NCBI GenBank assembly: GCA_030691635.1
Contig: JAUYEF010000014.1
Coordinates: 1-34,975, forward strand
Direction of reading: 5' to 3'
Length of the DNA: 34,975 nucleotides
DNA from: Bacillota bacterium
GTDB lineage: Bacteria > Bacillota > Sulfobacillia > JAUYEF01
This document shows positions 3 through 26,873 of the stretch, piece by piece. The position numbers and the translations under genes were made by a program. Numbering within the stretch: the first letter of the stretch is position 1; every line of letters begins with the position of its first letter. The notes under the pieces are model-generated. The model ran no database searches. It was given only the letters and a program-made list of their open reading frames with translations, and had not been told where the DNA came from.

Positions 3-1241
3 ATCATCAGAGAGGCCGATGCCGCGTTCGTGAACCTTGAGGTGGTGACTCCCAGGCAACCCCTGATACCGTCTGCAGAACACGGCGGGGCGAACCTTGG
101 CGCCCAGGAGTACGTGCTTGATGAGTTGAAGTGGATGGGCTTCAACCTTTACAGTGTCGCGAACAACCACTCGAACGACTACACGTACAAGGGGCTTCTC
201 GACACGATGCACGCGTTGCGCGAGCGCGGCATGGTGTATGCCGGCGGCGGCGCGAATCTCGGGGAGGCCCGGTCGCCGGCATACCTCGACACCGCGGACG
301 CACGAGTGGCCGTCCTGGGTGCGACATCGTCCTTCGTGGTGGGCGCGCCAGCAGGTCCATCCCGAGAGGATATGCCCGGCCGCCCCGGCATCAGCCCGCT
401 CCGCGTGGACTACGAGATCGCGCTCGACCAGGTCCGCTACGAAGCTCTGGCTGAGATTGACGAGGCCCTCGGCACGGCCGAGGTGGCGCGCGAGCGGCGC
501 CAGCTTGCGCGCATGCCCGCGCAGGAGGGTATCATGGAGTTCATGGGGCTCAGGTTCGTCAAGAGCGACCGGCCCGCGATCATGGAGAGGATTAACCAGC
601 GCGATCTTGGCGACATCTGCCGCTGGATAAGTGACGCGAAGAGGCAGGCGGAGTTCGTGGTGATGAGCCTTCACGCCCATCAAGGGCGGAACCGCAGGGG
701 CAACTGCCCGGACATCGCGGACTTTCTGCCTGAGGTCACGCACCGTCTTATCGATGCGGGCGCTGATGTCGTGGTCGGCCACGGCCCGCACATGCTTCGG
801 GCCTGCGAGGTGTACAAGGGGAAACCCATCTTCTATTCCCTGGGCGACTTTTACTACGTGAGCTCGGGCATCCAGAGATATCCTGCGGAAATCTACCTCA
901 ACCTGGGACTTCCGCCTGATGCGACGCCGGCCGATGTCCAGGACACCAACAACCGGGACAAAGACGGTAACCCGCGCGGGTTCGCGGCTGAGGAGCGGTT
1001 CTGGCAGTCGGTGATACCTGTCTGCACGTTTGAGGACTGGAAGATGGTCAGTCTCGAACTCCACCCGATCGAGCTGAAATTCCGGGCGCGCCACCGTTCG
1101 GTTCGCGGCGAGCCGCGCCTGGCAGACGTTGAGACAGGCACCAGCATACTGAGCCAGGTTGCCGCGCTCTCCGCGCCCTTCGGCTTCAAAATCGACATCG
1201 AGGCTCGCGGCCAATACGTCGTGGGCAGAGCGAGCTGGTAG
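3..1241 (+). CDS. CapA-family (PGA_cap) metallophosphatase-like protein, 5' end cut by window
   Basis: About 412 residues are visible. The reading frame is already open at the window edge (codons IIREADAAF precede the first GTG at 30), so the true start lies upstream. The protein belongs to the CapA/poly-gamma-glutamate capsule family with a calcineurin-like fold. Visible motifs are NNHSNDYT, SLHAHQG, VVGHGPHML and YSLGDF. It is clearly paralogous to the minus-strand CapA gene ending at 29349, and comparison suggests only about 35 residues are missing. Where the paralogue has SLGNF this copy has SLGDF, an Asn-to-Asp change in a conserved family motif. Substrate is unknown; the family is linked to poly-gamma-glutamate or other polymer handling. 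Family assignment is firm, function is not. Confidence 0.88.
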   Translation: MIREADAAFVNLEVVTPRQPLIPSAEHGGANLGAQEYVLDELKWMGFNLYSVANNHSNDYTYKGLLDTMHALRERGMVYAGGGANLGEARSPAYLDTADARVAVLGATSSFVVGAPAGPSREDMPGRPGISPLRVDYEIALDQVRYEALAEIDEALGTAEVARERRQLARMPAQEGIMEFMGLRFVKSDRPAIMERINQRDLGDICRWISDAKRQAEFVVMSLHAHQGRNRRGNCPDIADFLPEVTHRLIDAGADVVVGHGPHMLRACEVYKGKPIFYSLGDFYYVSSGIQRYPAEIYLNLGLPPDATPADVQDTNNRDKDGNPRGFAAEERFWQSVIPVCTFEDWKMVSLELHPIELKFRARHRSVRGEPRLADVETGTSILSQVAALSAPFGFKIDIEARGQYVVGRASW

Positions 1242-2371: not shown

Positions 2372-3382
2372 ATGAGGTTTTCCCGCCTGATCTCAACGAT
2401 AGACACTCACACCGAAGGGGAGCCGACGCGCACCGTGATAGGCGGCATACCCCGTATCCCGGGGAAGACAATGGGCGAGAAGATGCTGTACTTCAGGGAC
2501 AACATGGACGGGCTCAGGCGGACTCTCATGTTCGAGCCCAGGGGGCATGGGGTGATGTCCGGAGCAATCCTGACCGAGCCGTGCGACCCGAGGGCGGACG
2601 TCGGAGTGATATACATCGAGACCGGCGGCTACCTGCCGATGTGCGGCCACGATACGATCGGCTGCTGCACTGCTCTGGTGGAAGCTGGGATGGTCCCGGT
2701 GAAAGAGGGGATCACGGAGATCAAGCTCGACACTCCAGCAGGCCTGGTCACGGCGAAAGTCCTGGTCAAGAACGGCGCCGCCAAGGAAGTGACGTTTCGC
2801 AACATCCCCTCGTTCCTGTACATGCGTGACGCCAGAGTGCGCCTTGCCAGTGGCCAGGAGCTGACGATGGACATCGCCTATGGCGGGAACTTCTTCGGCA
2901 TCCTCGAGGCCCGGCAGGTCGGGCTGGAGATCCGTCCAGAGAGAGCAGGCGATATCATCCGGGTCGCCAACATGATCCGGGAGGCCGCATACGAGCAGAT
3001 CCGGGTGGTGCATCCAGAGAAGCCTCACATAGACAGGATGACCCACGTCGAATTCTACGGTGACCCCGAACAACCCGGCGCCGACGTCAGGAACGCTGTC
3101 GTCTTCCCGCCGGGACAGATAGACCGCTCACCCTGCGGGACCGGCACGTCGGCCAGGCTCGCGGCGCTCTATGCGAGGGGCGAAATCGGTCTCGGGCAGG
3201 AGTTTGTCCACGAAAGCATCCTCGGGAGCATCTTCCGCTCGCGGATTGTTGAGGAGACCGTGGTGGGGGGGCTCAAGGCCGTGGTCCCAGAGGTCACGGG
3301 CAGCGCATGGGTTATCGGCATCAACTCGTGGGTCATCGACCCGGATGACCCGTTGAAAAACGGTTTCTTGCTCGGCGTTTGA
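2372..3382 (+). CDS. proline racemase family protein, probable 4-hydroxyproline 2-epimerase
   Basis: The 336-residue product is of full family length. Both catalytic cysteines are visible: C91 in MCGHDTIG and C255 in DRSPCGTGTSAR. A Cys/Cys pair is the signature of racemases and epimerases; trans-3-hydroxyproline dehydratases of this family lack one Cys. ATG at 2372 is preferred over ATG 2357 because GGAGGA at 2359-2364 has 7-nt spacing, and because the paralogue on the minus strand also begins MRFSR. As first gene of an operon with D-hydroxyproline-dehydrogenase-like subunits and a DapA-family enzyme, it most likely converts trans-4-hydroxy-L-proline to cis-4-hydroxy-D-proline (LhpA role). 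Proline racemase activity cannot be excluded, but no D-proline reductase genes are visible. Confidence 0.85.
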   Translation: MRFSRLISTIDTHTEGEPTRTVIGGIPRIPGKTMGEKMLYFRDNMDGLRRTLMFEPRGHGVMSGAILTEPCDPRADVGVIYIETGGYLPMCGHDTIGCCTALVEAGMVPVKEGITEIKLDTPAGLVTAKVLVKNGAAKEVTFRNIPSFLYMRDARVRLASGQELTMDIAYGGNFFGILEARQVGLEIRPERAGDIIRVANMIREAAYEQIRVVHPEKPHIDRMTHVEFYGDPEQPGADVRNAVVFPPGQIDRSPCGTGTSARLAALYARGEIGLGQEFVHESILGSIFRSRIVEETVVGGLKAVVPEVTGSAWVIGINSWVIDPDDPLKNGFLLGV

Positions 3383-3433
3383 TGAGACCGGCGCTTGACG
3401 GTCTGGCCGCTCTGACTCCGGGAGGTGGCTTTC

Positions 3434-5098
3434 ATGAGGGACCTTTGGAACGGCCCGGGCGCCGCTCACCGCAGGGTGATCTACAAAGGCGCGGGCTATT
3501 CCGACGATGACATCCGCACAAAGCCGCATATCGGTATTGCCAACACCTTCACTGAAGTGTCGCCTGCCCACGCCCATCTTCGTTCGTTGGCGGAGGCCGT
3601 CAAGCAGGGAGTATGGGAGGCCGGTGGGCTGCCTTTCGAGTTCGGCGTCCCGGCCACGTGCGGGAATGTCGCGATCGGCATGGAGGAGATGAAGTACGAG
3701 CTCGCGGGCAGGGACGTTGTCGCGATGGCCGTCGAGTTTGTCAGCAGGGTCCACGCCTTCGACGGGCTGGTGATGCTCTCGTCCTGCGACAACATCATTC
3801 CCGGCCAGATGCTCGCTGCTGCGAGGCTGGACATCCCGAGTGTGCTGCTGACAGGCGGCCCGATGTACCCCGGCGTGTGGAGGGGCCGGCAAGTGCTGAC
3901 TCCGGACATAAACGTCCACGGCCTCTCAGGCGTGCTTCCGCGCGAATTCAACGAGATGGAAGACGCGGCGTGTCCAGGGTATGGCGCCTGCGCGGTGATG
4001 GGTACCGCCAATACCATGCAGATCTTGTCGGAGGTACTCGGCTTCTCGCTGCCGGGCACCGCCACCATCCCTGCCGCTACTGCCGCGCGCATACGGGCGG
4101 CGCGCGAGTCCGGCCGCGCAGCCGTCGACCTTATCAGGAGGGGCGTACGGCCCAGCGAGATGTTGAAGCGGGGCAGCCTCCTGAACGCTGTGATCGTCGA
4201 CCTTGCCATCGGCGGGTCGACCAATGCGGTGCTCCACCTGCTCTCGCTGGCGAGGGACCTGGACATAGACCTCAGCCTCGACGACTTCGACAGGCTGAGC
4301 GACGATACTCCCTGCATCTGCGCGGTGCGGCCCAACGGGCCGTATACGGTCGTGGACCTTCATGAGGAGGGTGGCGTGCCCGCCATCCTGAGTGCGCTCT
4401 CCGGCAAGCTCGACCTTGAGACGCGTGATGTCACAGGCCTGACCCTGGCCGAGCGGCTCGACGGGACCCGTCCGTGCCCCGGTGGGTCCAACCTGTGCCC
4501 CTGCGCAGTCATAAAGACGCCCGAGGATCCTGTCAGCGCTTCGTCAGGCCTCTCAGTCCTGAGAGGCAACCTGGCGCCTGATGGAGCCATCATCCGGTCA
4601 AGCGGAGTGCCGGAGGATATGAGGCGTTTCTCCGGGCCGGCGAAGGTCTTCCACAACGACTCCGAAGGGCTGCAGGCCGTCGAGAAGGGCGAGATCGTCC
4701 CCGGCGATGTGATTGTGATCCGGTATGAAGGGTGCCGGGGCGCGCCCGGCATGAAAGAGATCATGCTCACGACCGACGCAATGGTGGCTCGTGGACTGGA
4801 CCGGAGCGTCGGCTTGGTGACAGACGGCCGCTTTTCCGGGTTTAACTATGGCCCCATCGTGGGGCACGTTTCCCCGGAGGCGATGGATGGAGGGCCGATA
4901 GCGCTGGTCAAGAACGGTGACATCATCACGGTCGACATCGACGGGAAGGTTCTGCGCCTCGACGTTCTGGAGCCGGAGTTGCAGTGCCGCAGGGCCGCGT
5001 GGCATCGTCCGTCTCCAAAAACGACTCGAGGCCTCCTGGCGCTGTATGCCGCGACCTGCAGGCCTGCCCATGAAGGGGGAGCGATGCAGAACTGGTGA
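3434..5098 (+). CDS. IlvD/EDD family Fe-S dehydratase
   Basis: A 554-residue member of the dihydroxyacid / 6-phosphogluconate / aldonate dehydratase family. ATG 3434 follows GGAGG (3421-3425) with 8-nt spacing; an in-frame GTG at 3425 overlaps that site and is less likely. Expected cluster ligands are present: C76 (VPATCGNVAIG), C118 (SSCDNIIPGQM) and C186 (GYGACAVMGTANTM). The C-terminal swivel part (VTDGRFSGFNYGPIVGHVSPEA) is intact. The gene lies 51 nt after the epimerase and its stop overlaps the next start. No other branched-chain amino-acid biosynthesis gene is nearby, so a catabolic sugar-acid or hydroxy-acid dehydratase is more likely than IlvD proper. Some relatives dehydrate pentonates to 2-keto-3-deoxypentonates, which DapA-family enzymes turn into 2-oxoglutarate semialdehyde. 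The substrate here is inferred only. Confidence 0.85.
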   Translation: MRDLWNGPGAAHRRVIYKGAGYSDDDIRTKPHIGIANTFTEVSPAHAHLRSLAEAVKQGVWEAGGLPFEFGVPATCGNVAIGMEEMKYELAGRDVVAMAVEFVSRVHAFDGLVMLSSCDNIIPGQMLAAARLDIPSVLLTGGPMYPGVWRGRQVLTPDINVHGLSGVLPREFNEMEDAACPGYGACAVMGTANTMQILSEVLGFSLPGTATIPAATAARIRAARESGRAAVDLIRRGVRPSEMLKRGSLLNAVIVDLAIGGSTNAVLHLLSLARDLDIDLSLDDFDRLSDDTPCICAVRPNGPYTVVDLHEEGGVPAILSALSGKLDLETRDVTGLTLAERLDGTRPCPGGSNLCPCAVIKTPEDPVSASSGLSVLRGNLAPDGAIIRSSGVPEDMRRFSGPAKVFHNDSEGLQAVEKGEIVPGDVIVIRYEGCRGAPGMKEIMLTTDAMVARGLDRSVGLVTDGRFSGFNYGPIVGHVSPEAMDGGPIALVKNGDIITVDIDGKVLRLDVLEPELQCRRAAWHRPSPKTTRGLLALYAATCRPAHEGGAMQNW

Positions 5099-5439
5099 GC
5101 AAGAGACCAAGACCACAAGACGCAGCGCTTGCGTTACGAGTCATACACCACCCTGTGCTGGGCGATCAGGCTTCTGCCGGCCTCCTCGAGGTCACGGTGG
5201 ACGGCAGAGTGATCTTGGCACGGGAAGGGGAGACCATCGCTGCCGCGCTTCTTGCCGCGGGAGTCCGCACAAACCGCTACACGCCCAAGCGGCATGAGCC
5301 TCGCGGTTTGTTCTGTGCCATCGGGCAGTGCACGGACTGTGTGATGGTCGTAAACGGAGTCTCCAACGTCAGGACCTGCGTCACTCCAGTAGCGCCTGGG
5401 ATGACGATAAAGACGCAGCGTTCAATGGAGGGCCGGTGA
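5095..5439 (+). CDS. [2Fe-2S] electron-transfer subunit, HcnA/SoxA-like
   Basis: This 114-residue protein has a plant-type [2Fe-2S] ligand set in the spacing used by HcnA and the small subunits of D-hydroxyproline and opine dehydrogenases: C74, C79, C82 and C95 (FCAIGQCTDC ... RTC). The GTG start at 5095 overlaps the TGA of the dehydratase gene, indicating translational coupling. Its stop overlaps the ATG of the FAD subunit gene. In LhpBEF-type hydroxyproline dehydrogenase and archaeal four-subunit proline dehydrogenases an equivalent small subunit carries electrons between flavins. The role as a dehydrogenase subunit is a family-plus-context inference. Confidence 0.82.
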   Translation: MSKRPRPQDAALALRVIHHPVLGDQASAGLLEVTVDGRVILAREGETIAAALLAAGVRTNRYTPKRHEPRGLFCAIGQCTDCVMVVNGVSNVRTCVTPVAPGMTIKTQRSMEGR

Positions 5440-6569
5440 TGCCAGTGACGACGGACGTTGTGGTCATCGGCGCTGGCCCTGCCGGCCTGGCTGCCGCGCT
5501 TTCAGCGGCCAGGTATGGCGCGAGCGTGCTTGTCATCGATGCAAACCTCCGGCCTGGAGGCCAGTTGATCAAGCAGATCCACAAGTTCTTCGGCTCCCGT
5601 GAGCACCGCGCGGGCGTGCGAGGGATGGATATCGCACAGCAGCTACATGGCGAGGCTGTCGCGGCGGGCGCCAGGGTCTGGCTGGACAGCCAGGTCTACG
5701 GCGTATTCCACGGTGGAGCGCTGGAGATCGCCCGGGGTGGACTTGAGGAGGCCTCCACCGGCCGGCCAGCTGTAAAGGAGATCGTCCAGCCGCGGGCCAT
5801 CGTGCTCTGTACCGGGGCGTCGGAGAATGCCTTGGCTTTCCCCGGCTGGACCCTGCCGGGTGTTATGGGTGCGGGAGCGGCTCAGACGATGATCAATGTC
5901 GAAAGGGTCCTGCCTGGAAGGCGAGTCCTGATGGTCGGCTCCGGGAACGTCGGGCTTATCGTTTCCTACCAGCTCATGCAGGCAGGAGCCGAAGTCGTGG
6001 CTGTGGTCGAGGCAGCGCGCCGCATAGGAGGCTACGCAGTGCACGCAGTCAAAGTCAGCCGGGCAGGCGTGCCCATCTTGACTTCACACACTGTGGCAAG
6101 GGCGCTTGGGCTAGACGGTGTGCGGGTCGCGGAGGTCGTGGAACTCGACTCGGCGTGGAACCCCGTGGCCGGCACTGAGAAGGCGCTTGAGGTGGACACC
6201 ATCTGCATCGCCACGGGCCTCAGGCCTTACGCGAAGCTAGCCACGATGGCCGGGTGTGAGATGGCGTACTCATCACCCCTCGGCGGTTGGGTGCCGGTGC
6301 ACGGTGAGGACATGATGACATCCGTTCCGGGCCTGTATGTGGCCGGAGATGTGGCCGGTGTTGAAGAGGCCAGCACCGCCATGGAGGAAGGGCGCTTGGC
6401 GGGGCTGTCGGTGGTTGAGGCGCTCGGCCTGGCGGACGCCTCCCGCCTGGCAGAAGAGAAGAGGATGGCCCGGGAAAGGCTCCGGGATCTGAGGATAGGC
6501 CCGTTCGGCCAGATGAGGTCCGATGCCAAGCAGGCGCTGGTCCGCACGCAAGGGGGGAGGAAGGGATGA
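5439..6569 (+). CDS. FAD-dependent dehydrogenase alpha subunit (HcnB/LhpE-like)
   Basis: A 376-residue pyridine-nucleotide-disulfide-oxidoreductase-like flavoprotein. ATG 5439 overlaps the upstream TGA (TGATG) and sits 7-8 nt after GGAGG; the longer open frame starting at 5328 only shadows the previous gene. An N-terminal dinucleotide motif (VVIGAGPAGLAAA), a second Rossmann motif (MVGSGNVGL) and a C-terminal GLYVAGDVAGVEEA are seen. It lacks the fused C-terminal [2Fe-2S] domain found in many HcnB proteins; that domain appears instead as the separate gene at 7182. It probably forms the electron-accepting half of the dehydrogenase complex, passing electrons from the DAO-type subunit to the ferredoxin encoded next. 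Confidence 0.85.
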   Translation: MPVTTDVVVIGAGPAGLAAALSAARYGASVLVIDANLRPGGQLIKQIHKFFGSREHRAGVRGMDIAQQLHGEAVAAGARVWLDSQVYGVFHGGALEIARGGLEEASTGRPAVKEIVQPRAIVLCTGASENALAFPGWTLPGVMGAGAAQTMINVERVLPGRRVLMVGSGNVGLIVSYQLMQAGAEVVAVVEAARRIGGYAVHAVKVSRAGVPILTSHTVARALGLDGVRVAEVVELDSAWNPVAGTEKALEVDTICIATGLRPYAKLATMAGCEMAYSSPLGGWVPVHGEDMMTSVPGLYVAGDVAGVEEASTAMEEGRLAGLSVVEALGLADASRLAEEKRMARERLRDLRIGPFGQMRSDAKQALVRTQGGRKG

Positions 6570-7189
6570 CTGGGGAACCCAAGGCCAGGGAACCAGGGAT
6601 CAGGGAAGCCAGGGCCCGGGACGCCAAGACCGGGGAGACGGTGGAGACGAAAGGTTTCTACTCAGTCCAGGAACTGGCAAAGTCGCCCGGCTACCCTTCC
6701 CGCGAGCGCATGATGAAGGGGCCGGTGGCTGTCATCGAGTGCACGCAGGAAATCCCGTGCAACCCTTGTGAGGCGGCCTGCCCTCACGGCGCGATCACGG
6801 TGGGCCTGCCCATAACACGGTGCCCTGAACTTGATGGAGAGGAGTGTACCGGGTGCGGGCTTTGTATCGCGGCCTGCCCTGGGCTGGCGGTGTTTGTCGT
6901 GGATATGTGCTTTGCGCCGGGCCGGACGGCTGTGTCCTTCCCGTATGAGTACCTTCCCCTGGCGGCGAGAGGCGACAAGGTTACTGCCTGCGATAGGTCC
7001 GGGCATGCGGTGTGTGAGGCAGAGGTCCTTAAGGTGCTCTGCCCTCCTAGGAACGACCACACAGCAGTGGTCACCGTGGTGGTCCCGACGGCTTTCGCAC
7101 AAGAGGTCAGGGGCATTGTGAGACCAGGAGGCGGCATCGTGTGGCCACGAGGCGACGCTGGGAGGTCAGGAGGCGACGTGCGTGGGTGA
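6566..7189 (+). CDS. 2x[4Fe-4S] ferredoxin-type protein, 207 aa
   Basis: ATG 6566 follows a strong GGGGGGAGG and overlaps the upstream stop (ATGA). Two clusters are predicted from C59-C65-C68-C72 (CTQEIPCNPCEAACPHGAI) and C94-C97-C100-C104 (CTGCGLCIAACPG). The first has an unusual five-residue first gap. An N-terminal extension of about 50 charged residues and a C-terminal region of about 100 residues surround the clusters, so it is a complex subunit rather than a simple ferredoxin. Comparable ferredoxin-like subunits occur in the archaeal multi-subunit proline dehydrogenase. It likely passes electrons from the flavin subunits to soluble ferredoxin. Confidence 0.85.
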   Translation: MTGEPKAREPGIREARARDAKTGETVETKGFYSVQELAKSPGYPSRERMMKGPVAVIECTQEIPCNPCEAACPHGAITVGLPITRCPELDGEECTGCGLCIAACPGLAVFVVDMCFAPGRTAVSFPYEYLPLAARGDKVTACDRSGHAVCEAEVLKVLCPPRNDHTAVVTVVVPTAFAQEVRGIVRPGGGIVWPRGDAGRSGGDVRG

Positions 7190-7454
7190 TGACGTCGTGA
7201 TCTGCCGTTGCGAAGAAATGACTGTGGCGGACATACGTCAGGCCATCCGGGAAGGCGCCACCAGCCTCACCGGGATCAAAAGGCGCACCAGAGCCGGTAT
7301 GGGCCTGTGCCAGGGACGCACGTGCGAGACCTTGGTGGCGAGGATACTTGCCGAAGAACTCAAGAAGAAGGCGGCGGAGGTGTCTTGCTACAGCGTGAGG
7401 CCACCTATCGTGCCTGTGACGTTCGGCGTGCTTGCGGAGGAGCCACATGAGTAG
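7182..7454 (+). CDS. BFD-like [2Fe-2S] domain protein
   Basis: This 90-residue protein consists mainly of a bacterioferritin-associated-ferredoxin (Fer2_BFD) domain, with ligands C8, C10, C43 and C48 (ICRCEEMT ... GLCQGRTCE). The GTG start at 7182 lies 8 nt after AGGAGG (7168-7173) and overlaps the end of the ferredoxin gene; its own stop overlaps the next start by 8 nt. The domain is usually fused to the C-terminus of HcnB-type flavoproteins or to DAO-type subunits. Here it is free-standing, giving an unusually split complex. Confidence 0.85.
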   Translation: MGDDVVICRCEEMTVADIRQAIREGATSLTGIKRRTRAGMGLCQGRTCETLVARILAEELKKKAAEVSCYSVRPPIVPVTFGVLAEEPHE

Positions 7455-8652
7455 AGCACACGATGTCATTGTGGTGGGCGGTGGAGTGATCGGTAGCGCG
7501 GTGGCCTACTACCTGTCGAAGAAGGGTATCGACGTCCTGCTCTGTGAGAGGGGCGATGTGGCAAACGGGACTTCTTCCTCGTGCGACGGAAACGTGCTGG
7601 CGATAGACAAGATGCCGGGGTTCGATAGCCAGATCACGTTCGAATCACAGAAGCTGTACGACAGGCTCGAGACCGAACTCGGGCACGATTTTGAATACAG
7701 GCGGCTCGGCAGCACGCTGGCAGTGGAAGACGAGGAACAGGCAGTGACGGCGCGGGACTGGGTCCGGCGCCAGAAGCAGGCAGGCCTGCCAATGCGGTAC
7801 CTGGAGGGGCAGGAGGTCCACGACGACGAGCCACAGCTCGCCACGGACATCATTGGCCTTGTGGAATGCGCGTCGGACTCGTCTTTGAACCCCATGGCCG
7901 TCGTGTTTGGCTTTGTGCTCGCATCCCAGCGGCACGGCGCAAGCGTGAAGCGCTTCACGGAAGTCAGGAGCGTGGTCACGGGAGGCAAGAGTGAGGTTAC
8001 CGGGGTCGACACTTCCGAAGGCAGGTTCGCTGCCCCGAAAGTGATCATCTGCGCCGGCGTCTGGACACCGGCCCTAGCCGGGACCGTGGGCGTGAACGTG
8101 CCCATCACCCCGCGCAAGGGCCAGATACTTGTGGCTGAACGCACGAAGACCATCGGCAGGCGCAAACTCATGGAGTTCGGCTACCTCATGGCCAAGTTCG
8201 GTGGGCCAGCCAAGCGAAAAGTCGAGCCCGACATGGAGAAATACGGCATCGCTCTCGTGTTCGAGCCGACCCCTCACGGGAACTTCCTGATAGGCTCGTC
8301 ACGACAGTTCGTTGGATTCGACACCGTGTGTTCCAGCCGTGTCAACACTCTGCTCGCCCGAAGGGCCATCAGGTTCTACCCCGCGATCAGAGACGTGAAG
8401 GTGATACGATCGTACGCTGGCCTGAGGCCATACACCGACGACCACCTGCCGGTGGTCTCAGAGGCGCCGGAAGTTCCGGGGCTGTATGTGGCCGCGGGCC
8501 ATGAAGGCGACGGCATCGGCCTTGCGCCGGTGACCGGCCTGCTGATGTCGCAGATGGTGACGCGCGAACAGCCGGTAATGCCGGTGGAGCCTCTACGACT
8601 CGATCGCTTCCAGAGGAGTTCCGTGGGTGTCGGGCACGCATCTTGCTCCTAA
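7447..8652 (+). CDS. DAO-family FAD oxidoreductase, probable cis-4-hydroxy-D-proline dehydrogenase catalytic subunit (HcnC/LhpB-like)
   Basis: The product is 401 residues and starts at ATG 7447 after GGAGG. The TTG at 7432 only extends into the previous gene. The N-terminal motif VIVVGGGVIGSAVAYYL is the FAD-binding fold of the D-amino-acid-oxidase family. The C-terminal GLYVAAGHEGDGIGLAPVTG matches glycine-oxidase/HcnC-type proteins. With the [2Fe-2S] and HcnB-like subunits it makes the set known from LhpBEF, which oxidises cis-4-hydroxy-D-proline to pyrroline-4-hydroxy-2-carboxylate. The iron-sulfur partners indicate a dehydrogenase rather than an oxygen-using oxidase. D-proline or another D-amino acid remains possible. 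Confidence 0.83.
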   Translation: MSRAHDVIVVGGGVIGSAVAYYLSKKGIDVLLCERGDVANGTSSSCDGNVLAIDKMPGFDSQITFESQKLYDRLETELGHDFEYRRLGSTLAVEDEEQAVTARDWVRRQKQAGLPMRYLEGQEVHDDEPQLATDIIGLVECASDSSLNPMAVVFGFVLASQRHGASVKRFTEVRSVVTGGKSEVTGVDTSEGRFAAPKVIICAGVWTPALAGTVGVNVPITPRKGQILVAERTKTIGRRKLMEFGYLMAKFGGPAKRKVEPDMEKYGIALVFEPTPHGNFLIGSSRQFVGFDTVCSSRVNTLLARRAIRFYPAIRDVKVIRSYAGLRPYTDDHLPVVSEAPEVPGLYVAAGHEGDGIGLAPVTGLLMSQMVTREQPVMPVEPLRLDRFQRSSVGVGHASCS

Positions 8653-8677
8653 CTTCACACTCGGGAGGAGTGGTTCT

Positions 8678-9568
8678 GTGGGCAGACTTTCAGGCGTCAT
8701 GACAGTCATGATCACACCGCTCAAGAGCGACGGCTCGGTGGACTACCAAGGGTTTGAGAAGAACATCGATTGGCAGATCGGGCAGGGCATTCACGGCGTG
8801 ATCGCCCTCGGCAGCACCGGCGAGTTTGCGGCCCTGGAGGACGACGACAAGAAGAGCATAGCGGAGTTCGTGATGAAGACCGTCGGCGGAAGAGTGCCTG
8901 TCATCATAGGCACGACCGCGGAGACGACGGAGAAGACCATCCAGTACTCCCGGCACGCCAAAGCCATAGGGGCGTCCGGCGTCATGGTGCTTCCTTCATA
9001 TTACTGCAAGCCCAACCAGGAGGAGATGTTCACCCACTTCGCCAGGGTCGCCGACGCGGTGGACATCCCGGTGGTCATCTACAACAACCCCTGGAGCGCA
9101 GGGGTGGATATGCAGGCGGCGACGGTGGCGAGGCTCGCCCGGCACAACCCGAACCTGGCCTACATAAAGGAAAGCACCGCCGACATGCGGCGGATCCGTG
9201 ACATCATAGTGGAATGCGGCGACAGCATCACTGCGTTCTGTGGCTGGGAGGACCTTGCGTTCGAGTCGTTTGTCGTGGGCGCCAAGGGCTGGGTTTGCGT
9301 CATCGGCAACATCGCCCCGGCGCACTCGGTCAAGCTTTTCGACCTCGTCGTCAACAAGAAGGACTATTGCGCCGCCTGGGATCTGTACAAGACCATGCTT
9401 CCGATGCTGAGGTACCTGGAATACTCGGGTAAACTCCAGCAGACTCTGAAGTACTCGCTTGACCGGATGGGTCTGGCCGGCGGCCCGGTGAAGAGCCCGC
9501 GCCTACCGCCCAGCGCCGAAGACAAGACGCAAATCGACGGTATGCTCAAGGCCATGGGTCTGATCTAG
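8678..9568 (+). CDS. DapA-family lyase/deaminase, probable pyrroline-4-hydroxy-2-carboxylate deaminase
   Basis: The 296-residue class I aldolase-fold enzyme is of normal family length. GTG 8678 follows GGAGGAG (8664-8670) with 7-nt spacing. The Schiff-base lysine is K164 (YIKEST), the catalytic tyrosine is Y135 (VIYNNP), and the GSTGEF loop is present. Lysine biosynthesis is unlikely in this context. In hydroxyproline pathways a DapA-family protein (LhpC) deaminates the dehydrogenase product to 2-oxoglutarate semialdehyde, and close relatives dehydrate 2-keto-3-deoxypentonates to the same compound. Either role links the upstream dehydrogenase, or the IlvD-family enzyme, to the aldehyde oxidoreductase encoded next. 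Confidence 0.85.
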   Translation: MGRLSGVMTVMITPLKSDGSVDYQGFEKNIDWQIGQGIHGVIALGSTGEFAALEDDDKKSIAEFVMKTVGGRVPVIIGTTAETTEKTIQYSRHAKAIGASGVMVLPSYYCKPNQEEMFTHFARVADAVDIPVVIYNNPWSAGVDMQAATVARLARHNPNLAYIKESTADMRRIRDIIVECGDSITAFCGWEDLAFESFVVGAKGWVCVIGNIAPAHSVKLFDLVVNKKDYCAAWDLYKTMLPMLRYLEYSGKLQQTLKYSLDRMGLAGGPVKSPRLPPSAEDKTQIDGMLKAMGLI

Positions 9569-9608
9569 GCGATTCTGCGAGAGCTTCGAGCATAAGGAGG
9601 CCTGCCCG

Positions 9609-11480
9609 ATGGGGAACGGGTACTGGAACAGAGTACTGAGGGTTGACCTCACCACACGCACGACCTGGGTGGAAGGCGTCGGCGACGAGGTATGGAGGGA
9701 AGTGACGGGCGGCGCCGGGTATGGCGCGAAGGTGCTGCTCGAGGAGGCGACCCGTGACACCGATCCCTTCGGCCCGGAGAACCCGCTGGTGTTCGCCCTG
9801 GGCGCATACCAGGCGGGCAATTGCCCGGGCAACGCGAAGTGGACGGCTGTCGCCAAGTCCCCGCTGACGAACACATATGGCGACTCCGCCGGGGGCGCGG
9901 ACTGGGGAGTGCAGCTGAAACGAGCGGGTTACGACGCGCTCGTCATCAAAGGCGCAGCGTCCGAGCCGTGTTACCTCGTCATCAACAACGACCGGGTCGA
10001 GATCAAGAACGCCGACGGCCTGTGGGGCCTGGATGCATTCGAAACCTGCGCCCGCGTGCCGGAAATCGAGGGCGACAAGCGCTACGGCGTTGTCTGCATC
10101 GGTCCGGCAGGCGAGAAGATGGTCCGCATGGCATGCCTTGTGGCCGACGGGCACAGCTTCGCCGGGCGCTGCGGGCTGGGCGCAGTCATGGGGTCGAAGA
10201 AGTTGAAGGCCATCGCTGTCCGGGGCACGCAGTCCGTGGACGTGGCCGACCCGGCCCGTCTGGCGGGCCTGACGCGGGAGCACTTCGCGACGATCCACAA
10301 CGTAACGCGCCAGAACGGGCTCAGGGACCACGGCACGCCAAACCTCTGCATAACCGCCGAAGCGTTCGGCGACATGCCCATCAAGAACTGGACCGGAGAC
10401 GTCTGGCCGGAAGGCGCGAAAGCGCTGGGAGCGCCGAACTATACACAGGTGCTCAATGCCAGGCCGCTGCCGTGCACGAACTGTCCCGCGGGATGCCACA
10501 GGGACATCGAGGTCACTAACCCCAGCAAGTACGCCCTGAAGGGACCTGGCCCGGAATACGAGACGGTGGGCATGCTCGGCACGAACCTGCTGATAGATGA
10601 TCCGAAGGCCGTGGCGAAGGCAAATGATGTCTGCAACCGGCTCGGGATAGACACCATCTCCGCGGGCTCGGCTGTCGGCCTGGCCATGGAGGCGTTCGAG
10701 CACGGATGGATCACGCGAGACTCGACCGGGCTGGACCTCGGCTGGGGGAACGCGGACGCCGCCATCGAGCTGTTGGGCCAGATCGGGTCGCGGACCGGCT
10801 TCGGCGCGATATTCGCTGACGGGACGCTGGCGGGGGCCGCCAGGATCCACCCGGACGCGCCTGACCTTGTGGCGCAGGTGAAGGGCCTCGACCTGCCCGC
10901 CCACGACGCGCGCGCCTGCTGGAGCCTTGGCGTCAACTACGCGACCGGCACGAGGGGCGCCTGCCACATGAGGGGCGTGACCGAAGACGTGGAGATGGGC
11001 GGGTTTTTCGTCCCGGAGCTGGGAATCGTCAAGGACTGGTCGATGTTCTTCAACCCTGAGAACAAGGCTGCGCTGGCCCAGAGGCTCCAGGACTATTGCG
11101 CCTGGTGCAACTCGCTGGTGATATGCGTGTTCATGATCGATGGGGGAGAGCTCTCCATGACGTCGCTGGCGGACATCTTCAACGCCATCACAGGCTGGGG
11201 TTACGGCGTTGAGGACATCATGAAAGCGGGGGCGCGGATCTACAACCTGCAGCGTCTTGTGAACATCCGGGACGGCCACGACCGCTCGACCGACACGCTC
11301 CCTCTGAAAATGCGGATCCCGGCAAAGACGGGCTTCAGGGCGGGGAAGGCGCCGGTCCCCATAGACAGATACCTCGACGAGATCTACGCGGTCCGAAAGT
11401 GGACTCCCAGGGGACTTCCGACGCGTGAGTGCATTGAGGAACTCGGCCTTGAGACGTACGCCCGGCTGGCAGGCCTTTAG
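9609..11480 (+). CDS. aldehyde ferredoxin oxidoreductase (tungsten/molybdenum-pterin family)
   Basis: The 623-residue product is full length for the AOR family. ATG 9609 follows AAGGAGG. The N-terminal domain contains the pterin-binding region (GDSAGGADWGVQLKRAGYDA). The [4Fe-4S] ligands are C289, C292 and C296 (CTNCPAGC), with a likely fourth at C506 (LVICVF). AORs oxidise aldehydes to acids with ferredoxin as acceptor. It sits 40 nt after the DapA-family gene, and the operon contains no NAD(P)-dependent aldehyde dehydrogenase. The inferred reaction is therefore 2-oxoglutarate semialdehyde to 2-oxoglutarate. Substrate assignment is by position only, since the family accepts many aldehydes. 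Confidence 0.9.
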   Translation: MGNGYWNRVLRVDLTTRTTWVEGVGDEVWREVTGGAGYGAKVLLEEATRDTDPFGPENPLVFALGAYQAGNCPGNAKWTAVAKSPLTNTYGDSAGGADWGVQLKRAGYDALVIKGAASEPCYLVINNDRVEIKNADGLWGLDAFETCARVPEIEGDKRYGVVCIGPAGEKMVRMACLVADGHSFAGRCGLGAVMGSKKLKAIAVRGTQSVDVADPARLAGLTREHFATIHNVTRQNGLRDHGTPNLCITAEAFGDMPIKNWTGDVWPEGAKALGAPNYTQVLNARPLPCTNCPAGCHRDIEVTNPSKYALKGPGPEYETVGMLGTNLLIDDPKAVAKANDVCNRLGIDTISAGSAVGLAMEAFEHGWITRDSTGLDLGWGNADAAIELLGQIGSRTGFGAIFADGTLAGAARIHPDAPDLVAQVKGLDLPAHDARACWSLGVNYATGTRGACHMRGVTEDVEMGGFFVPELGIVKDWSMFFNPENKAALAQRLQDYCAWCNSLVICVFMIDGGELSMTSLADIFNAITGWGYGVEDIMKAGARIYNLQRLVNIRDGHDRSTDTLPLKMRIPAKTGFRAGKAPVPIDRYLDEIYAVRKWTPRGLPTRECIEELGLETYARLAGL

Positions 11481-11484
11481 CGCT

Positions 11485-11721
11485 ATGGCAGGTACTGTGC
11501 GCGTGTCCGTACGGCTCTTCGGCAGTTTGGCAGAGAAGCTGGGCGAACGGCGCGATGTTGACGTCACCGCTCCGGCAACGGTGGCCGGCCTGTTGCAGGC
11601 GCTTGGACTGACGGAGAAGACCATCTCGATAGCCGTGGTGGATGGTGTCCAGGTCCCGCTGTCCGCCAGTCTTCGCGACGGCGCCAGTCTCATGCTGGTA
11701 CCCCCGGTGATCGGTGGCTGA
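11485..11721 (+). CDS. MoaD/ThiS-family sulfur carrier protein
   Basis: A 78-residue beta-grasp protein ending in the Gly-Gly tail needed for adenylation and thiocarboxylate formation (PPVIGG). ATG 11485 lies 4 nt after the AOR stop; the longer open frame from 11425 lies inside AOR. MoaD supplies sulfur to molybdopterin/tungstopterin synthase, and AOR-linked MoaD copies are common. It is the last gene of the operon. No MoaE or other cofactor genes are in the window, so it must work with partners encoded elsewhere. Confidence 0.85.
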   Translation: MAGTVRVSVRLFGSLAEKLGERRDVDVTAPATVAGLLQALGLTEKTISIAVVDGVQVPLSASLRDGASLMLVPPVIGG

Positions 11722-12111: not shown

Positions 12112-13119
12112 TCAGGCAAGCACAAAACCATTCGGGACAGGGTCGTTTGGACTCACGACGAAGGTGTGAAGCCCCGTCACAAACGCCTGTCCTTTTATTT
12201 CGGGCACTATCGCAGGAAGATTCCCGACCCGCGTGGTCTCGACCGCGCGTGCCACGAATCTTGTGCAGATGATGCTCTCATAGACGAACTCCTGGCCCAG
12301 CGCAAGCTCGCCACGCGCGTGGAGAGCCGCGACCCTGGCGGAAGTCCCTGTTCCACATGGTGAGCGGTCAAGGGATGCCGGCTCGATCACCACGCAGTTC
12401 TGCCCGTCCGCCCCGGGGGTGCGGGGAGGTCCGGTGAACTGCACGTAGGTGATGCGGTTGATGATAGGCATCTCGGGGTGGCAGACCGGCACCGTCGCGT
12501 TGATCGTATCCCGTATCCTGTTTCCTGCGGCGATCAGCCGGCCCGCATTCTCCGGCAGGATTTCGAGGCCAACCGCAGACGCCGGGAGGATCGCGTAGAA
12601 GTTCCCACCATAGGCCAGGTCGCACGTGACCCGGCCGGTCCCAGGCACGTCCACCGTCACGTCAGCCCGGTAGAGGAAAGACGGCACGTTGTTGAACCGG
12701 ACGCTCTCCACGGTGCCGTCGCACACTTCGGCGACGACTCTGACCAGCCCCGCAGGTGTGTCAAAGGCAATACGCGTCTCCGGCTCAGTGGCTTCAATCA
12801 TACCGGCCTCCAGCAGGGCGGTGCACGCGCCGATGGTGTCGTGGCCGCACATTGGCACGTAGCCCCCGACCTCGAAGTAGATGACACCGATATCCGCGTC
12901 GGGCCGGCAGGGCTCAGTGATGAGCGCGCCGGACATGACCCCGCTGCCGCGTGGCTCGTGCATCAGCACAGTCCGCACCCAATCGGCGTTCTCCCTGAGG
13001 CATGTCATCTTTTCTGACATGGTCCGGCCCTTCAGCCGTGGAGCTCCCCCGATGACAGTGCGGGTCGGTTGCCCCAGGGTATGAGTGTCGATTGTCTTGA
13101 GCATACGCGAGAAGCGCAT
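12112..13119 (-). CDS. proline racemase family protein, second copy
   Basis: A 335-residue paralogue of the protein encoded from 2372, matching it without gaps through the first catalytic region. Both cysteines are kept: C91 (VPMCGHDTIG) and C255 (DRSPCGTGTSAR), so a racemase or epimerase is expected. ATG at 13119 lies 9-10 nt after an AGGGGGG tract; a GTG directly upstream at 13122 is an alternative start. It is transcribed toward the operon ending at 11721 and appears monocistronic. Having two epimerases suggests distinct substrates, for example 4-hydroxyproline versus proline or 3-hydroxyproline, which cannot be settled by reading alone. The 260 bp upstream hold no other gene. Confidence 0.87.
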   Translation of the reverse strand: MRFSRMLKTIDTHTLGQPTRTVIGGAPRLKGRTMSEKMTCLRENADWVRTVLMHEPRGSGVMSGALITEPCRPDADIGVIYFEVGGYVPMCGHDTIGACTALLEAGMIEATEPETRIAFDTPAGLVRVVAEVCDGTVESVRFNNVPSFLYRADVTVDVPGTGRVTCDLAYGGNFYAILPASAVGLEILPENAGRLIAAGNRIRDTINATVPVCHPEMPIINRITYVQFTGPPRTPGADGQNCVVIEPASLDRSPCGTGTSARVAALHARGELALGQEFVYESIICTRFVARAVETTRVGNLPAIVPEIKGQAFVTGLHTFVVSPNDPVPNGFVLA

Positions 13120-13382
13120 CACCGTTGCCCCCCTGCAAAGCCGGTCACGATCATGGACTGCAATCAGATTCTCCGGGTCGACTGCGGAAACCTTGCAGGG
13201 TTATTGCCAGCGCAGTCCCACTATTGCGGATTTGTCATAATTCGACAGGAATCGGCAGAAAGTATTGACTGGAGATGTGTGGAATAAAATGGAAGAGAAT
13301 GCCCCGACCTTATGCCATTCCGCGCCAGTTGATGTGCCAACGGTCCCGCTACACTTGCCCCGGGTTTCCCGGAACGAGGTGA

Positions 13383-14617: not shown

Positions 14618-15409
14618 TCACTTGGGTGGCTGGCTCACCTCCTGTCGTACCAGCGATGTGCTGAAGAACCCGGCTCGCTTCTTGTCTTTCAGCCTGTAAC
14701 TCTCGCCACGGATGTTCACCGTGGTTGAATGGTGCAACAGCCTGTCCAGTATCGCCGTGGCAAGAATCGCATCCCCGAACACAGTTCCCCAGTCGCCGTA
14801 GCTTTTGTTTGAGGTGAGGATGATCGAGCTTTTCTCGTACCTCATGGATACAAGCTGGAAGAAGATCGTGGCTCCGGTCTCGTCCAGAGGCAGATAACCC
14901 ATCTCATCCACGATCAGCACCTTGGGAGCCGTGTACACCCTCATCCTGCGCTCAAGCCTGTTTTCCGCCCACGCTTTGCGAAGGTCCGCCACCATATCGG
15001 CCGCGGTGATGAAGTAGACGCCCATGCCCTGTTGGATAGCCTGTATGCCCAGCGCCACCGCCAGGTGGCTCTTGCCAACGCCCGGCGGGCCCTGCAGGAT
15101 CACGTTGGATGCGTCGTGCGCAAAGCGCAGTGTGGCCAGTTCCCGGATCTGGCGCTCGTCAATGGACGGCTGGAACGAGAAGTCAAACTGGTCGAGCGTC
15201 TTGTAAAACGGCAGGTGGGCCAGGCGGGTCCTGGCCTTGAGGTATCGCTCGCGCCTTGCCGCGGTCTCAGCCTCGACCAGGTCCCAGAGGAACTCGGGGT
15301 ATGTGGCGTTGTTGTGCGCTGCGGCCTCGAGCCGGCTTTGCAGCAGCGATGCCATCTGCGCCAGCCCCAGCGCCTCAAGAGACTCGCGCAACTGCGTGAT
15401 CTGCGTCAT
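14618..15409 (-). CDS. istB: IS21-family helper ATPase IstB
   Basis: A 263-residue AAA+ ATPase of usual IstB length. Walker A is GPPGVGKS (about residues 106-113) and Walker B is VLIVDEMGYL. A DnaC-like fold and the ILTSNKSYGDWGTVFGD segment are typical of IstB. Its ATG overlaps the istA stop by 4 nt. IstB loads the IstA transposase on target DNA. The reading frame appears intact, so the element may still be active. Confidence 0.95.
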   Translation of the reverse strand: MTQITQLRESLEALGLAQMASLLQSRLEAAAHNNATYPEFLWDLVEAETAARRERYLKARTRLAHLPFYKTLDQFDFSFQPSIDERQIRELATLRFAHDASNVILQGPPGVGKSHLAVALGIQAIQQGMGVYFITAADMVADLRKAWAENRLERRMRVYTAPKVLIVDEMGYLPLDETGATIFFQLVSMRYEKSSIILTSNKSYGDWGTVFGDAILATAILDRLLHHSTTVNIRGESYRLKDKKRAGFFSTSLVRQEVSQPPK

Positions 15410-16617: not shown

Positions 16618-16681
16618 TTCCCTACCTCCTAGCAAAGTTGGCACCTCCACCTGGCCAAGGTTTTGGTGTCGGATTCGCTGG

Positions 16682-16734
16682 GGGTGGGGAATTTTCATCC
16701 GGCTACTATGGGGATTTTAGCACCGGCTATGACA
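16682..16734 (-). repeat. IS21 right terminal inverted repeat with internal repeats
   Basis: Read on the minus strand from 16734, it begins TGTCATAGCCGGTGC and ends in AAAATTCCCCACCCCC, mirroring the left end of the element. Confidence 0.85.
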
Positions 16735-16892
16735 CCAAGAACACCGCCGTAACAGGTATCTCGAGAGTGGGCAAGGTATTCCTCCTGGTGTCGTTCGGCG
16801 CCGCATTCGCCAACACCGTGATGGCTCGAATGTCGTTGCTCCTGGGACGGATGCAGTTCCTGCTCCAGACATGGCTTGGGATTGGGACATAG
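16735..16892 (+). pseudogene. membrane protein gene C, part 2 (C-terminus displaced by IS21)
   Basis: Directly after the IS right end the frame reads TKNTAVTGISRVGKVFLLVS, a hydrophobic/glycine segment, then NTVMARMSLLLGRMQFLLQT before TAG at 16890. It has no start of its own; the open frame to its left is IS sequence. Orientation and membrane-protein character fit the C-terminus of the gene whose first part ends at 14557. Confidence 0.7.
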
Positions 16893-16950
16893 GCTCTCGG
16901 CCGGGGCCGATTGCCGCAACACGAAGCCTCAAAATCAGGAGGTATGGCAG

Positions 16951-19725: not shown

Positions 19726-19887
19726 GCGCAAAACACTTGTGCCTTGGGCTGGGACGCCGTGTCTCTCATTAGGGTGGCATGCGGCCTCCGGCTCACTCCC
19801 ATGGATTGACGGGACTCCACGCTCATTTACGCAACGGAGAGCTTGGGGTCCTGGGTTCGAAGACTAGAGAATAGGAGGGAATGCGAT

Positions 19888-21066: not shown

Positions 21067-21078
21067 GCTGCAGGCTGC

Positions 21079-21106
21079 AAGGGGACAGGTGCGACCCTGT
21101 CCCCTT
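21079..21106 (+). promoter_or_regulatory. strong stem-loop between livJ and livH
   Basis: AAGGGGACAGG (21079-21089) pairs perfectly with CCTGTCCCCTT (21096-21106) around a TGCGAC loop. It begins 13 nt after the livJ stop and ends before the livH ribosome site at 21131. No T-run follows. Such hairpins commonly protect binding-protein mRNA or dampen read-through so that the binding protein is made in excess over the membrane subunits. Confidence 0.65.
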
Positions 21107-21143
21107 GGGTTGTTCCCACACCTCTGCTAAAGGAGAGGTATAC

Positions 21144-22043: not shown

Positions 22044-22070
22044 TCACAATACGAGTCCAGGGGTGAGGAC

Positions 22071-24536: not shown

Positions 24537-24711
24537 CGACAGACCAATCCCTGTCTGAACTGTGCTTCCCAACGGTAACGCTGGACAGGAGACTTCCCTT
24601 TGGATGGCGAGGGTAGGGCGCAAAGGGAATGTCACGTAAAAACATCGTTTTCCTTTCGCCCCTTATGCTTGTTCATTGCAGGAAACTCACCGTGCATCCC
24701 TCTAGCTGACA

Positions 24712-24965: not shown

Positions 24966-25141
24966 TCCCATTTGACCAAAAGGCCAGCAGGGATGATGTT
25001 TCATTGCTCATGATAGGCGGAACTTCGGTCTGGAAGAAGGGATTCAACCCGGTGAGGCATAAAGATTTGACACGCGCTGTGCCTGCTGCGATGGAATAAC
25101 TCCCTGACGCAGATCATGTCGCCTCGACTGGGGGTGCGTTG

Positions 25142-26422
25142 GTGCGCCTGGCACAAGAAGAAGAGCTCATGCTCAGCGGCCGCAGAGGAGAAGCACTGAG
25201 GCTGGCGATGACGATCGTCGTCGAACTCGGAAGGCTTTACGGCGCCCAGAGACTGATTCGCATCTCCCAGGCTCACATAGATGGCTGCCTGTACAGCGCG
25301 GTCGGTGAAGCCGGGGCGGAGTTCGCCGCGAAACTCGCAGGTCTTGGGGCGCGAGTGGCGGTACCGACCACGCTCAACATCACAGCACGGGATATCCTGA
25401 ACTGGCAGGAGTTCCGCATACCCTCCGAGCACGCCGAGAACTCGCGGCGCGTTGAAGATGCCTACCTCAAGATGGGTTGCATCCCGACATGGACGTGCAC
25501 ACCCTACCAGCACGGCATTGTGCCACGCTGCGGTGACCAGATAGCCTGGGCTGAGTCTAACGCAATCTGCTACGCTAACTCCGTGCTCGGCGCCCGGACC
25601 AACAGGTATGGGGATCTCATCGACATATGCTGTGCCATTACGGGAAGGGCACCGGAATTTGGCTTGCACCTGGAGGAGAACCGGGCCGGCGAGGTCCTCG
25701 TGCGTTTTGACGTGCCTGACAGGGCGTTCGACGATGACTCGCTTTACTCGGCAGCTGGGTACCTGGTCGGAGAAGTGGCCGGCAGCAGGATACCTGTGGT
25801 TGCGGGATTTCCGGGCCACGCGACCCCGGACAACCTCAAGGCGTTCAGCGCGGCGGCAGCCTCCTCAGGAGCCGTCGGACTGTTTCACATAGTGGGGGTG
25901 ACGCCGGAGGCGCCGACTATGGAGGCAGCCTTCGCGGGCCGGGCACACCGTGAAGAAACGCTGGTGGGGCCACAGGACCTGCTGGCGGCGGCGGAAAAGC
26001 TCGATGCGTGTCCAGCCTGCGGTGGGTCAAGCGACCTGCACACACATGGCAGCGTGGACCTGGTTGTCACTGGCTGCCCGCATGCATCGTACATGGAGGT
26101 CGAGCGTGTCGCCGGGCTGCTCCGGGGCAGACATGTGAAGGACGGGATGGAGTTCTGGATCCTCACAAACCGGATGGTCGCAGGCCTCGCGGCAAGGTCG
26201 GGCCTCGATACGTTTCTTCGCGAGGCCGGTGTAAGGCTTTGCTGTGATACCTGCACGTTGCAGTTCCCGCTGGAGGCCTGGCACATCGGTTCGATCGTCA
26301 CCAATTCGGGCAAGATGGCGCATTACGCTCCGGGTATGTGCGGTTGCCGCACATACCTGAGAAGTATCGAGGCTTGCGTGGACGCCGCCTTGACCGGGGA
26401 GGTGGCTGAGCGTGGACGGTAG
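25142..26422 (+). CDS. aconitase X catalytic (large) subunit, probable cis-3-hydroxy-L-proline dehydratase
   Basis: A roughly 426-residue AcnX catalytic domain protein. The start is either TTG 25139 or GTG 25142; the GTG is better spaced from GGGGG. Family landmarks are the N-terminal LAQEEELMLSGRRGEALRLAM, HIDGCLYS, the LGARTNRYGD segment, and a C-terminal region rich in Cys (RLCCDTCT, APGMCGCRTYL) that can bind a metal or Fe-S centre. Bacterial AcnX proteins of this separate-subunit kind include cis-3-hydroxy-L-proline dehydratases forming pyrroline-2-carboxylate; archaeal ones act on phosphomevalonate. A second hydroxyproline-type function in this window favours the former. The next gene is its swivel partner. 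Confidence 0.85.
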   Translation: MRLAQEEELMLSGRRGEALRLAMTIVVELGRLYGAQRLIRISQAHIDGCLYSAVGEAGAEFAAKLAGLGARVAVPTTLNITARDILNWQEFRIPSEHAENSRRVEDAYLKMGCIPTWTCTPYQHGIVPRCGDQIAWAESNAICYANSVLGARTNRYGDLIDICCAITGRAPEFGLHLEENRAGEVLVRFDVPDRAFDDDSLYSAAGYLVGEVAGSRIPVVAGFPGHATPDNLKAFSAAAASSGAVGLFHIVGVTPEAPTMEAAFAGRAHREETLVGPQDLLAAAEKLDACPACGGSSDLHTHGSVDLVVTGCPHASYMEVERVAGLLRGRHVKDGMEFWILTNRMVAGLAARSGLDTFLREAGVRLCCDTCTLQFPLEAWHIGSIVTNSGKMAHYAPGMCGCRTYLRSIEACVDAALTGEVAERGR

Positions 26423-26873
26423 AGCGGGGTGTCGGGTCTCGCTGGTCCCCCTGGTTCCCGGCGACGCCCGCGGTGAGCTGGCGGTGTCCACCGTGCCCCT
26501 GAGCTTCTGGGGAGGTTTCGATGCCACGTCCGGCAGAGTCACAGACGTGCGTCATGACCTCTGCGGACAGTCGTTGACAGGCAAAGTGCTCGTGATACCG
26601 GCCTCGCGGGGCTCGAGCAGCAGCTCTGGCGTGCTCCTGGAGTCGATCCGGCTCGGCACATGCCCAGCCGCGATCATCTCCCAGGTCGCAGAACCCATTC
26701 TCGCCATCGCCTCGATCATTGCCCGGCAAATCTATGGCCGGTGGGTGCCTGTGGCCACGTTGTCCGCCGCTGAGGCGGCCTTTCTCGAGAGCGGGCAGAT
26801 GGTGTGTGTCCGGATTTCGGCAAATACCGGCGAGATGCTATTAGACAAGCAACAACGCTGGAGGGATACGTGA
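26412..26873 (+). CDS. aconitase X swivel-domain (small) subunit, DUF126
   Basis: A 153-residue swivel-domain protein. GTG 26412 lies 8 nt after GGGGAGG and overlaps the large subunit gene by 11 nt. The conserved loop is GKVLVIPASRGSSSSSGVLL, with a Ser-rich stretch where relatives have Ser/Cys/Gly. In AcnX the small subunit closes over the active site and contributes a catalytic Ser. Separate subunits encoded in this order are usual for the two-gene form. Its TGA overlaps the next ATG. Confidence 0.87.
   Translation: MDGRAGCRVSLVPLVPGDARGELAVSTVPLSFWGGFDATSGRVTDVRHDLCGQSLTGKVLVIPASRGSSSSSGVLLESIRLGTCPAAIISQVAEPILAIASIIARQIYGRWVPVATLSAAEAAFLESGQMVCVRISANTGEMLLDKQQRWRDT

Follow-up and report, generated by a model that had tools for sequence, protein, structure and literature searches.

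A predicted anaerobic hydroxyproline operon in which an aldehyde ferredoxin oxidoreductase probably takes the place of the semialdehyde dehydrogenase

A 34,975-nucleotide stretch of contig JAUYEF010000014.1 (assembly GCA_030691635.1) from a Bacillota bacterium of the class Sulfobacillia, hereafter the window, carries a single plus-strand run of ten genes with short or overlapping junctions at 2372–11721. This run is probably the hydroxyproline operon of an anaerobe, in which an aldehyde ferredoxin oxidoreductase (AOR) of the tungsten type, instead of an NAD(P)-dependent aldehyde dehydrogenase (ALDH), would convert 2-oxoglutarate semialdehyde to 2-oxoglutarate. Degradation of hydroxyproline by the predicted enzymes is well supported by the pocket residues of the epimerase, the motifs of the DapA-family enzyme, the linkage with aconitase X (AcnX) genes, and a gene content that equals that of canonical clusters. 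Oxidation of the semialdehyde by the AOR is the best reading of the conserved linkage of its gene, the absence of a matching ALDH, and the contrast with ALDH-containing clusters of the same class.

The gene order is a Cys/Cys proline-racemase-family gene (PR1), IlvD/EDD, a 2Fe-2S protein (Fer2), HcnB, a protein with two 4Fe-4S motifs (Fer4), BFD, DAO, a DapA-family gene, AOR, and MoaD. Overlaps of 4 bases join IlvD/Fer2, Fer2/HcnB, and HcnB/Fer4, and overlaps of 8 bases join Fer4/BFD and BFD/DAO, while gaps of 42 and 40 bp separate PR1 from IlvD and DapA from AOR, respectively. An earlier interpretation of the letters of this DNA (the sequence-only reading) had named nine of these genes as one operon; all nine were recovered on the plus strand, each with a Pfam match, but the IlvD/EDD dehydratase gene in second place had been overlooked.

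The known trans-4-hydroxy-L-proline pathway consists of 4-hydroxyproline epimerase (4HypE), cis-4-hydroxy-D-proline dehydrogenase or oxidase, pyrroline-4-hydroxy-2-carboxylate (Pyr4H2C) deaminase, and 2-oxoglutarate-semialdehyde (KGSA) dehydrogenase (PMC4113996). In the operon, PR1 would epimerize trans-4-hydroxy-L-proline to cis-4-hydroxy-D-proline, which the flavin/iron-sulfur dehydrogenase (DAO, HcnB, 2Fe-2S, BFD, and 4Fe-4S proteins) would oxidize to its cyclic imine. From the imine, the DapA-family enzyme would form 2-oxoglutarate semialdehyde by deamination and dehydration. The AOR, served by the neighboring MoaD, would oxidize this aldehyde to 2-oxoglutarate and pass the electrons to ferredoxin, replacing the NAD(P)-dependent ALDH. 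We infer every reaction, metal, and electron acceptor of this route from the genes. The epimerase, the DAO/HcnA/HcnB/BFD-type dehydrogenase, and the DapA-family enzyme belong to the same families and have the same signature residues as in the canonical pathway. Unlike that pathway, the window has AOR and MoaD, and KGSA dehydrogenase was not found in the operon or the genome; moreover, a 4Fe-4S subunit is added to a dehydrogenase that is canonically three-part, and the operon includes an IlvD/EDD dehydratase, for which a pure trans-4-hydroxyproline route has no need.

PR1 contains the catalytic pair C91 (MCGHD) and C255 (SPCGTG). Hydroxyproline epimerases are distinguished from proline racemases by Ser or Val for Phe at R1 (site 1) and by His for Leu or Cys at R2 (site 4) (PMC1964878; PMC4364671). 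PR1 has Ser63 and His225 at the positions of Phe and Leu in proline racemases, and the same pair was found in the operon racemase homologs of four other genomes (G035, G053, G101, and G102) and in those of ALDH-type clusters. DAO-type, HcnB-type, and small iron-sulfur subunits of the heteromeric cis-4-hydroxy-D-proline dehydrogenase type lie together on adjacent genes according to Pfam, and the window DAO shows 63–68% identity with its operon counterparts in other genomes. Two motifs, YNNP...VD and KE...D-x-R-R, are common to the window DapA, the DapAs of ALDH-type hydroxyproline clusters, and the DapA of Bacillus badius.

The AOR possesses AFOR_N and AFOR_C domains and scored 354 bits against AOR and 277 bits against formaldehyde ferredoxin oxidoreductase (FOR), which places it nearer AOR. 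Class I AORs are characterized by Thr243, Glu313, Tyr427, and His448 in Pyrococcus furiosus numbering (PMC13328260). The window AOR keeps T243, E316, and H453, which match three of these residues, together with the four cluster cysteines (C289, C292, C296, and C506); the position of Tyr427 is occupied by His432, as it is by His in 26 of 29 other aligned AORs. The operon-type AORs formed a clade of seven with 100/99 support in the AOR tree.

The linkage that the sequence-only reading had proposed to search for was found in other genomes. The run PR-Fer2-HcnB-Fer4-BFD-DAO-DapA-AOR, without IlvD, recurs in G035, G053, and the Bipolaricaulota genome G102, where a frameshift-broken creatinase/prolidase-type gene lies between DapA and AOR; Bipolaricaulota G101 has the same run minus DapA. 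These are two Firmicute-type metagenome-assembled genomes (G035 and G053, the latter of Clostridia) and two of Bipolaricaulota, with about 50–70% protein identity. That the gene order is shared by four further genomes from two phyla indicates that it is not due to chance.

A whole-genome search for PF00171 detected two genes in the source genome, both of the methylmalonate-semialdehyde type (533 and 534 bits; cut-off 448.5). The same search gave no match in G014, G101, and G102, and G035 and G053 had weak partial matches only (up to 97 bits). Apart from these unclassified matches, no 2-oxoglutarate-semialdehyde dehydrogenase was detected by PF00171 searches in genomes with this AOR clade. In contrast, other clusters of the same class have an ALDH instead of an AOR: it adjoins the racemase, dehydrogenase, and DapA genes at loci L157 and L163 and lies nearby at L162, L164, and L170, with no racemase in the stretch read at L164 and L170. 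The best model for the L157 ALDH was KGSA dehydrogenase (652 bits, below the cut-off of 770), and DapA is directly followed by ALDH in the hydroxyproline-type cluster of B. badius. The proposal that AOR performs the last step is supported to this extent: AOR occupies the canonical place of ALDH, and the operon-bearing genomes yielded no ALDH of the semialdehyde-dehydrogenase type. The activity itself stays a prediction.

Several observations weigh against this interpretation. The site 5 marker of hydroxyproline epimerases is Cys or Tyr (PMC4364671); PR1 has the proline-racemase-like Phe245 there, and the homologs of ALDH-type clusters have Val. PR1 also scored below all NCBIfam epimerase cut-offs (359.4 against 376 bits for NF010578, other models being further below), and its epimerase role is therefore a predicted activity and not a formal subgroup membership. 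The closest plasmid DapAs (45% identity, Azospirillum) adjoin a fused dehydrogenase with no racemase there, and in G101 no DapA stands beside the operon AOR. G014 has DapA-AOR-MoaD (67–73% identity) behind TRAP-transporter genes and no detected proline racemase; either the DapA-AOR pair also serves another input, or the racemase gene is missing by chance from a genome that is 91% complete. The genomes compared were mostly drafts, with completeness of 96.8% for the source genome (G000), 97% for G035, and 92% for G053. Relatives without the operon (G099, G004, and G059) also had no strong ALDH matches, so the contrast is partly one of lifestyle. Within the AOR, Gln494 and Val507 correspond in the pairwise alignment to Arg481 and Arg492 of Pyrococcus FOR, which we take to be the glutarate-holding residues. 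In the multiple alignment the FOR column for Arg481 shows Gln, and the two alignments agree only at the Arg492 position; carboxylate binding through FOR-like arginines was unsupported by the pairwise alignment. Finally, a second AOR of the clade in G101 adjoins a D-threonine-aldolase-like gene, and a 49% identical relative in G203 comes after an L-threonine-aldolase-like gene. Together with G014, these neighbors suggest that the wider AOR group works alongside several amino-acid enzymes that release aldehydes, and the substrate assignment made here accordingly rests on context.

The threonine-aldolase-type neighbors would also fit a hydroxyproline operon whose AOR is a broad aldehyde scavenger with a main substrate such as acetaldehyde or glyoxylate, the semialdehyde being removed by it only incidentally or by an unrecognized enzyme. 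The source genome contains five AOR-family genes, which favors this explanation, and AORs are generally held to be broad aldehyde detoxifiers (PMC12096430). However, a scavenger is unlikely, as all five operons, which span two phyla, place the AOR gene immediately after DapA, after DAO, or after DapA and a peptidase gene, and searches of the five genomes gave no canonical semialdehyde dehydrogenase. The proline racemase of Acetoanaerobium is the nearest solved structure to PR1 (372 bits) and, along with Phe245, raises the question of whether the operon racemizes and oxidizes proline and its AOR acts on a proline-derived aldehyde. This is highly improbable, given Ser63 and His225 in the pocket, a deaminating DapA that would have no substrate in a proline route, and the AcnX linkage.

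A sugar-acid or keto-acid module made up of IlvD/EDD, DapA, and AOR is also very unlikely; in it, dehydration to a 2-keto-3-deoxy acid would be followed by dehydration or aldol cleavage by DapA and by aldehyde oxidation, with the racemase and dehydrogenase merely co-transcribed or feeding the same semialdehyde. Pentonate and hydroxyproline routes do converge on the semialdehyde, every one of the five operon genomes has IlvD/EDD genes of about 53–73% identity within or close to the cluster, frequently accompanied by a second DapA, and G014 has DapA-AOR without the racemase. A further IlvD copy elsewhere in the source genome makes a non-biosynthetic role for the operon IlvD possible. However, the AOR-adjacent DapA has the hydroxyproline-cluster motifs and the second neighboring DapA of related genomes does not. 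The operon IlvD, which is complete, scored best with general dihydroxy-acid dehydratase models (585–588 bits) and reached 418 bits against the NCBIfam cut-off of 882 for L-arabinonate dehydratase, and the sole IlvD match in G014 is a 43% paralogue. A hydroxyproline operon with a semialdehyde-oxidizing AOR is preferred.

The sequence-only reading had also let the dehydrogenase feed ferredoxin, and this part found no support. The potential of the proline/pyrroline-5-carboxylate couple is about -0.12 V, and the oxidation of proline-type substrates to imines lies at too positive a potential for unaided ferredoxin reduction. The 4Fe-4S subunit at first appeared peculiar to AOR-type operons, a pattern that fitted the first loci compared; it was rejected once members of the family turned up in 43 of the 154 genomes searched across the class, and a family so widespread is uninformative about the hydroxyproline pathway specifically. 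It is conceivable, though unlikely, that the enlarged dehydrogenase, with its two 4Fe-4S motifs and NAD-binding HcnB, combines low-potential ferredoxin made by the AOR with the weaker electrons from D-hydroxyproline to reduce NAD+ (confurcation), the aldehyde step being independent of NAD(P). A one-chain version of the dehydrogenase was observed on an Azospirillum plasmid (L229, 5883–8837, minus strand), where a 984-aa fusion of Fer2, Pyr_redox, BFD, and DAO domains adjoins a DapA that is 45% identical to that of the window.

Replacement of ALDH by AOR in hydroxyproline breakdown was not described in the open-access literature searched, subscription papers and preprints being outside its scope, in agreement with the sequence-only reading, which knew of no description. 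A related case is phenylalanine degradation in Aromatoleum aromaticum, where a tungsten AOR replaces a missing NAD-linked dehydrogenase in amino-acid catabolism (PMC6365974; PMC12096430). That enzyme is multi-subunit, NAD-capable, and acts on phenylacetaldehyde in a deletion mutant, whereas the window AOR is a single-subunit gene fixed in a hydroxyproline operon. For P. furiosus FOR, glutaric semialdehyde or dialdehyde has been proposed as native substrate, and glutarate is present in the crystal (PMC12096430); the window AOR shares the family and, in the pairwise alignment, lacks the FOR arginines. In view of these precedents, the hydroxyproline case would be a variation of a known pathway. 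The HypD glycyl-radical route likewise allows anaerobic use of hydroxyproline, by radical dehydration there versus epimerization and oxidation here. Its dehydratase was not found in the source genome or G053; G014 carries the glycyl-radical enzyme, as does the sister genome G099 (1,414 bits; cut-off 1,100), beside related racemase and dehydrogenase genes. At that locus (L153, 2650–10977), the dehydratase and a radical-SAM protein, probably its activase, adjoin a PR-Fer2-HcnB-BFD-DAO set.

If correct, the route would be a second anaerobic one beside the glycyl-radical dehydratase for a major collagen amino acid, and the energy of the aldehyde would be conserved as reduced ferredoxin. A 2026 survey assigned a defined physiological role to 5 of 92 tungsten-oxidoreductase clades (PMC13328260); an AOR clade that is tied to a catabolic operon and for which a substrate can be predicted would offer one more role that is directly testable.

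The features of the window are listed in Table 1, including PR2 and the AcnX pair, which had also been overlooked. PR2 has the pocket Ser/Tyr/Ile, with Tyr and Ile at the positions of His225 and Phe245 of PR1, and its substrate is perhaps another hydroxyproline isomer. AcnX is a cis-3-hydroxy-L-proline dehydratase frequent in hydroxyproline clusters (PMC5144071). Both of its subunits are present about 13 kb downstream of the operon in a separate plus-strand run, and each of the five operon genomes has AcnX genes within the cluster or close to it; the score against the equivalog NF051439 was 402 bits, with a cut-off of 700. Branched-chain-type ABC transporter genes, read from translations, precede them (19843–24536, plus strand), and 19843–26873 is a probable set for uptake and cis-3-hydroxyproline dehydration.

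Table 1. Predicted features of the window and the matches on which they are based.
Feature	Position	Strand	Evidence
PR1, predicted trans-4-hydroxy-L-proline 2-epimerase (LhpA/HypE type)	2372..3382	+	PF05544 (Pro_racemase) 412 bits; Cys91/Cys255, Ser63, His225, Phe245
IlvD/EDD-family dehydratase	3425..5098	+	PF00920 (ILVD_EDD_N) 361 bits; ILV_EDD_C 222 bits; TIGR00110 585 bits, below 618 cut-off
2Fe-2S subunit (HcnA-like) of predicted D-hydroxyproline dehydrogenase	5095..5439	+	PF13510 (Fer2_4) 102 bits
HcnB-like FAD/NAD(P)-binding subunit of predicted dehydrogenase	5436..6569	+	PF07992 (Pyr_redox_2) 112 bits; SoxA-like region 140 bits
Dehydrogenase subunit with two 4Fe-4S motifs	6566..7189	+	PF00037 (Fer4) 31 bits; two Cys motifs read in sequence
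BFD-like [2Fe-2S] subunit	7182..7454	+	PF04324 (Fer2_BFD) 55 bits; PF17806
DAO-type catalytic flavoprotein, predicted cis-4-hydroxy-D-proline dehydrogenase	7447..8652	+	PF01266 (DAO) 218 bits
DapA-family enzyme	8627..9568	+	PF00701 (DHDPS) 216 bits; YNNP...VD and KE...D-x-R-R motifs
AOR, single large subunit, predicted 2-oxoglutarate-semialdehyde oxidase	9609..11480	+	PF02730/PF01314 (AFOR_N/AFOR_C) 241/365 bits
MoaD/ThiS-type protein, sulfur carrier for pterin cofactor	11485..11721	+	PF02597 (ThiS) 38 bits; Gly-Gly C-terminus; start placed from sequence, 5 bp past AOR stop
PR2, second Cys/Cys proline-racemase-family gene, convergent	12112..13122	-	58% identity to PR1
AcnX catalytic and swivel subunits, predicted cis-3-hydroxy-L-proline dehydratase	25139..26873	+	PF04412 475 bits; PF01989 87 bits

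Outside this window, AORs in or near the clade were seen directly after D- or L-threonine-aldolase-like genes at L054 (610–3782) and L219 (7004–9963), an arrangement that suggests a coupling of aldehyde oxidation to pyridoxal-phosphate aldolases in anaerobes. An Rfam search found no RNA elements in the window. Downstream of the operon and ahead of the transporter genes, an IstA/IstB-like pair (14618–16698, minus strand) was read by eye as an IS21-type insertion element. The protein encoded at 16876–18531 (plus strand), near the hydroxyproline genes, belongs to DUF885 and contains an HE..GHH stretch resembling that of metalloproteases, so it may be a peptidase, and two similar proteins, CapA-like by eye, are encoded near the window ends (30–1241, plus strand, and 29349–30809, minus strand).

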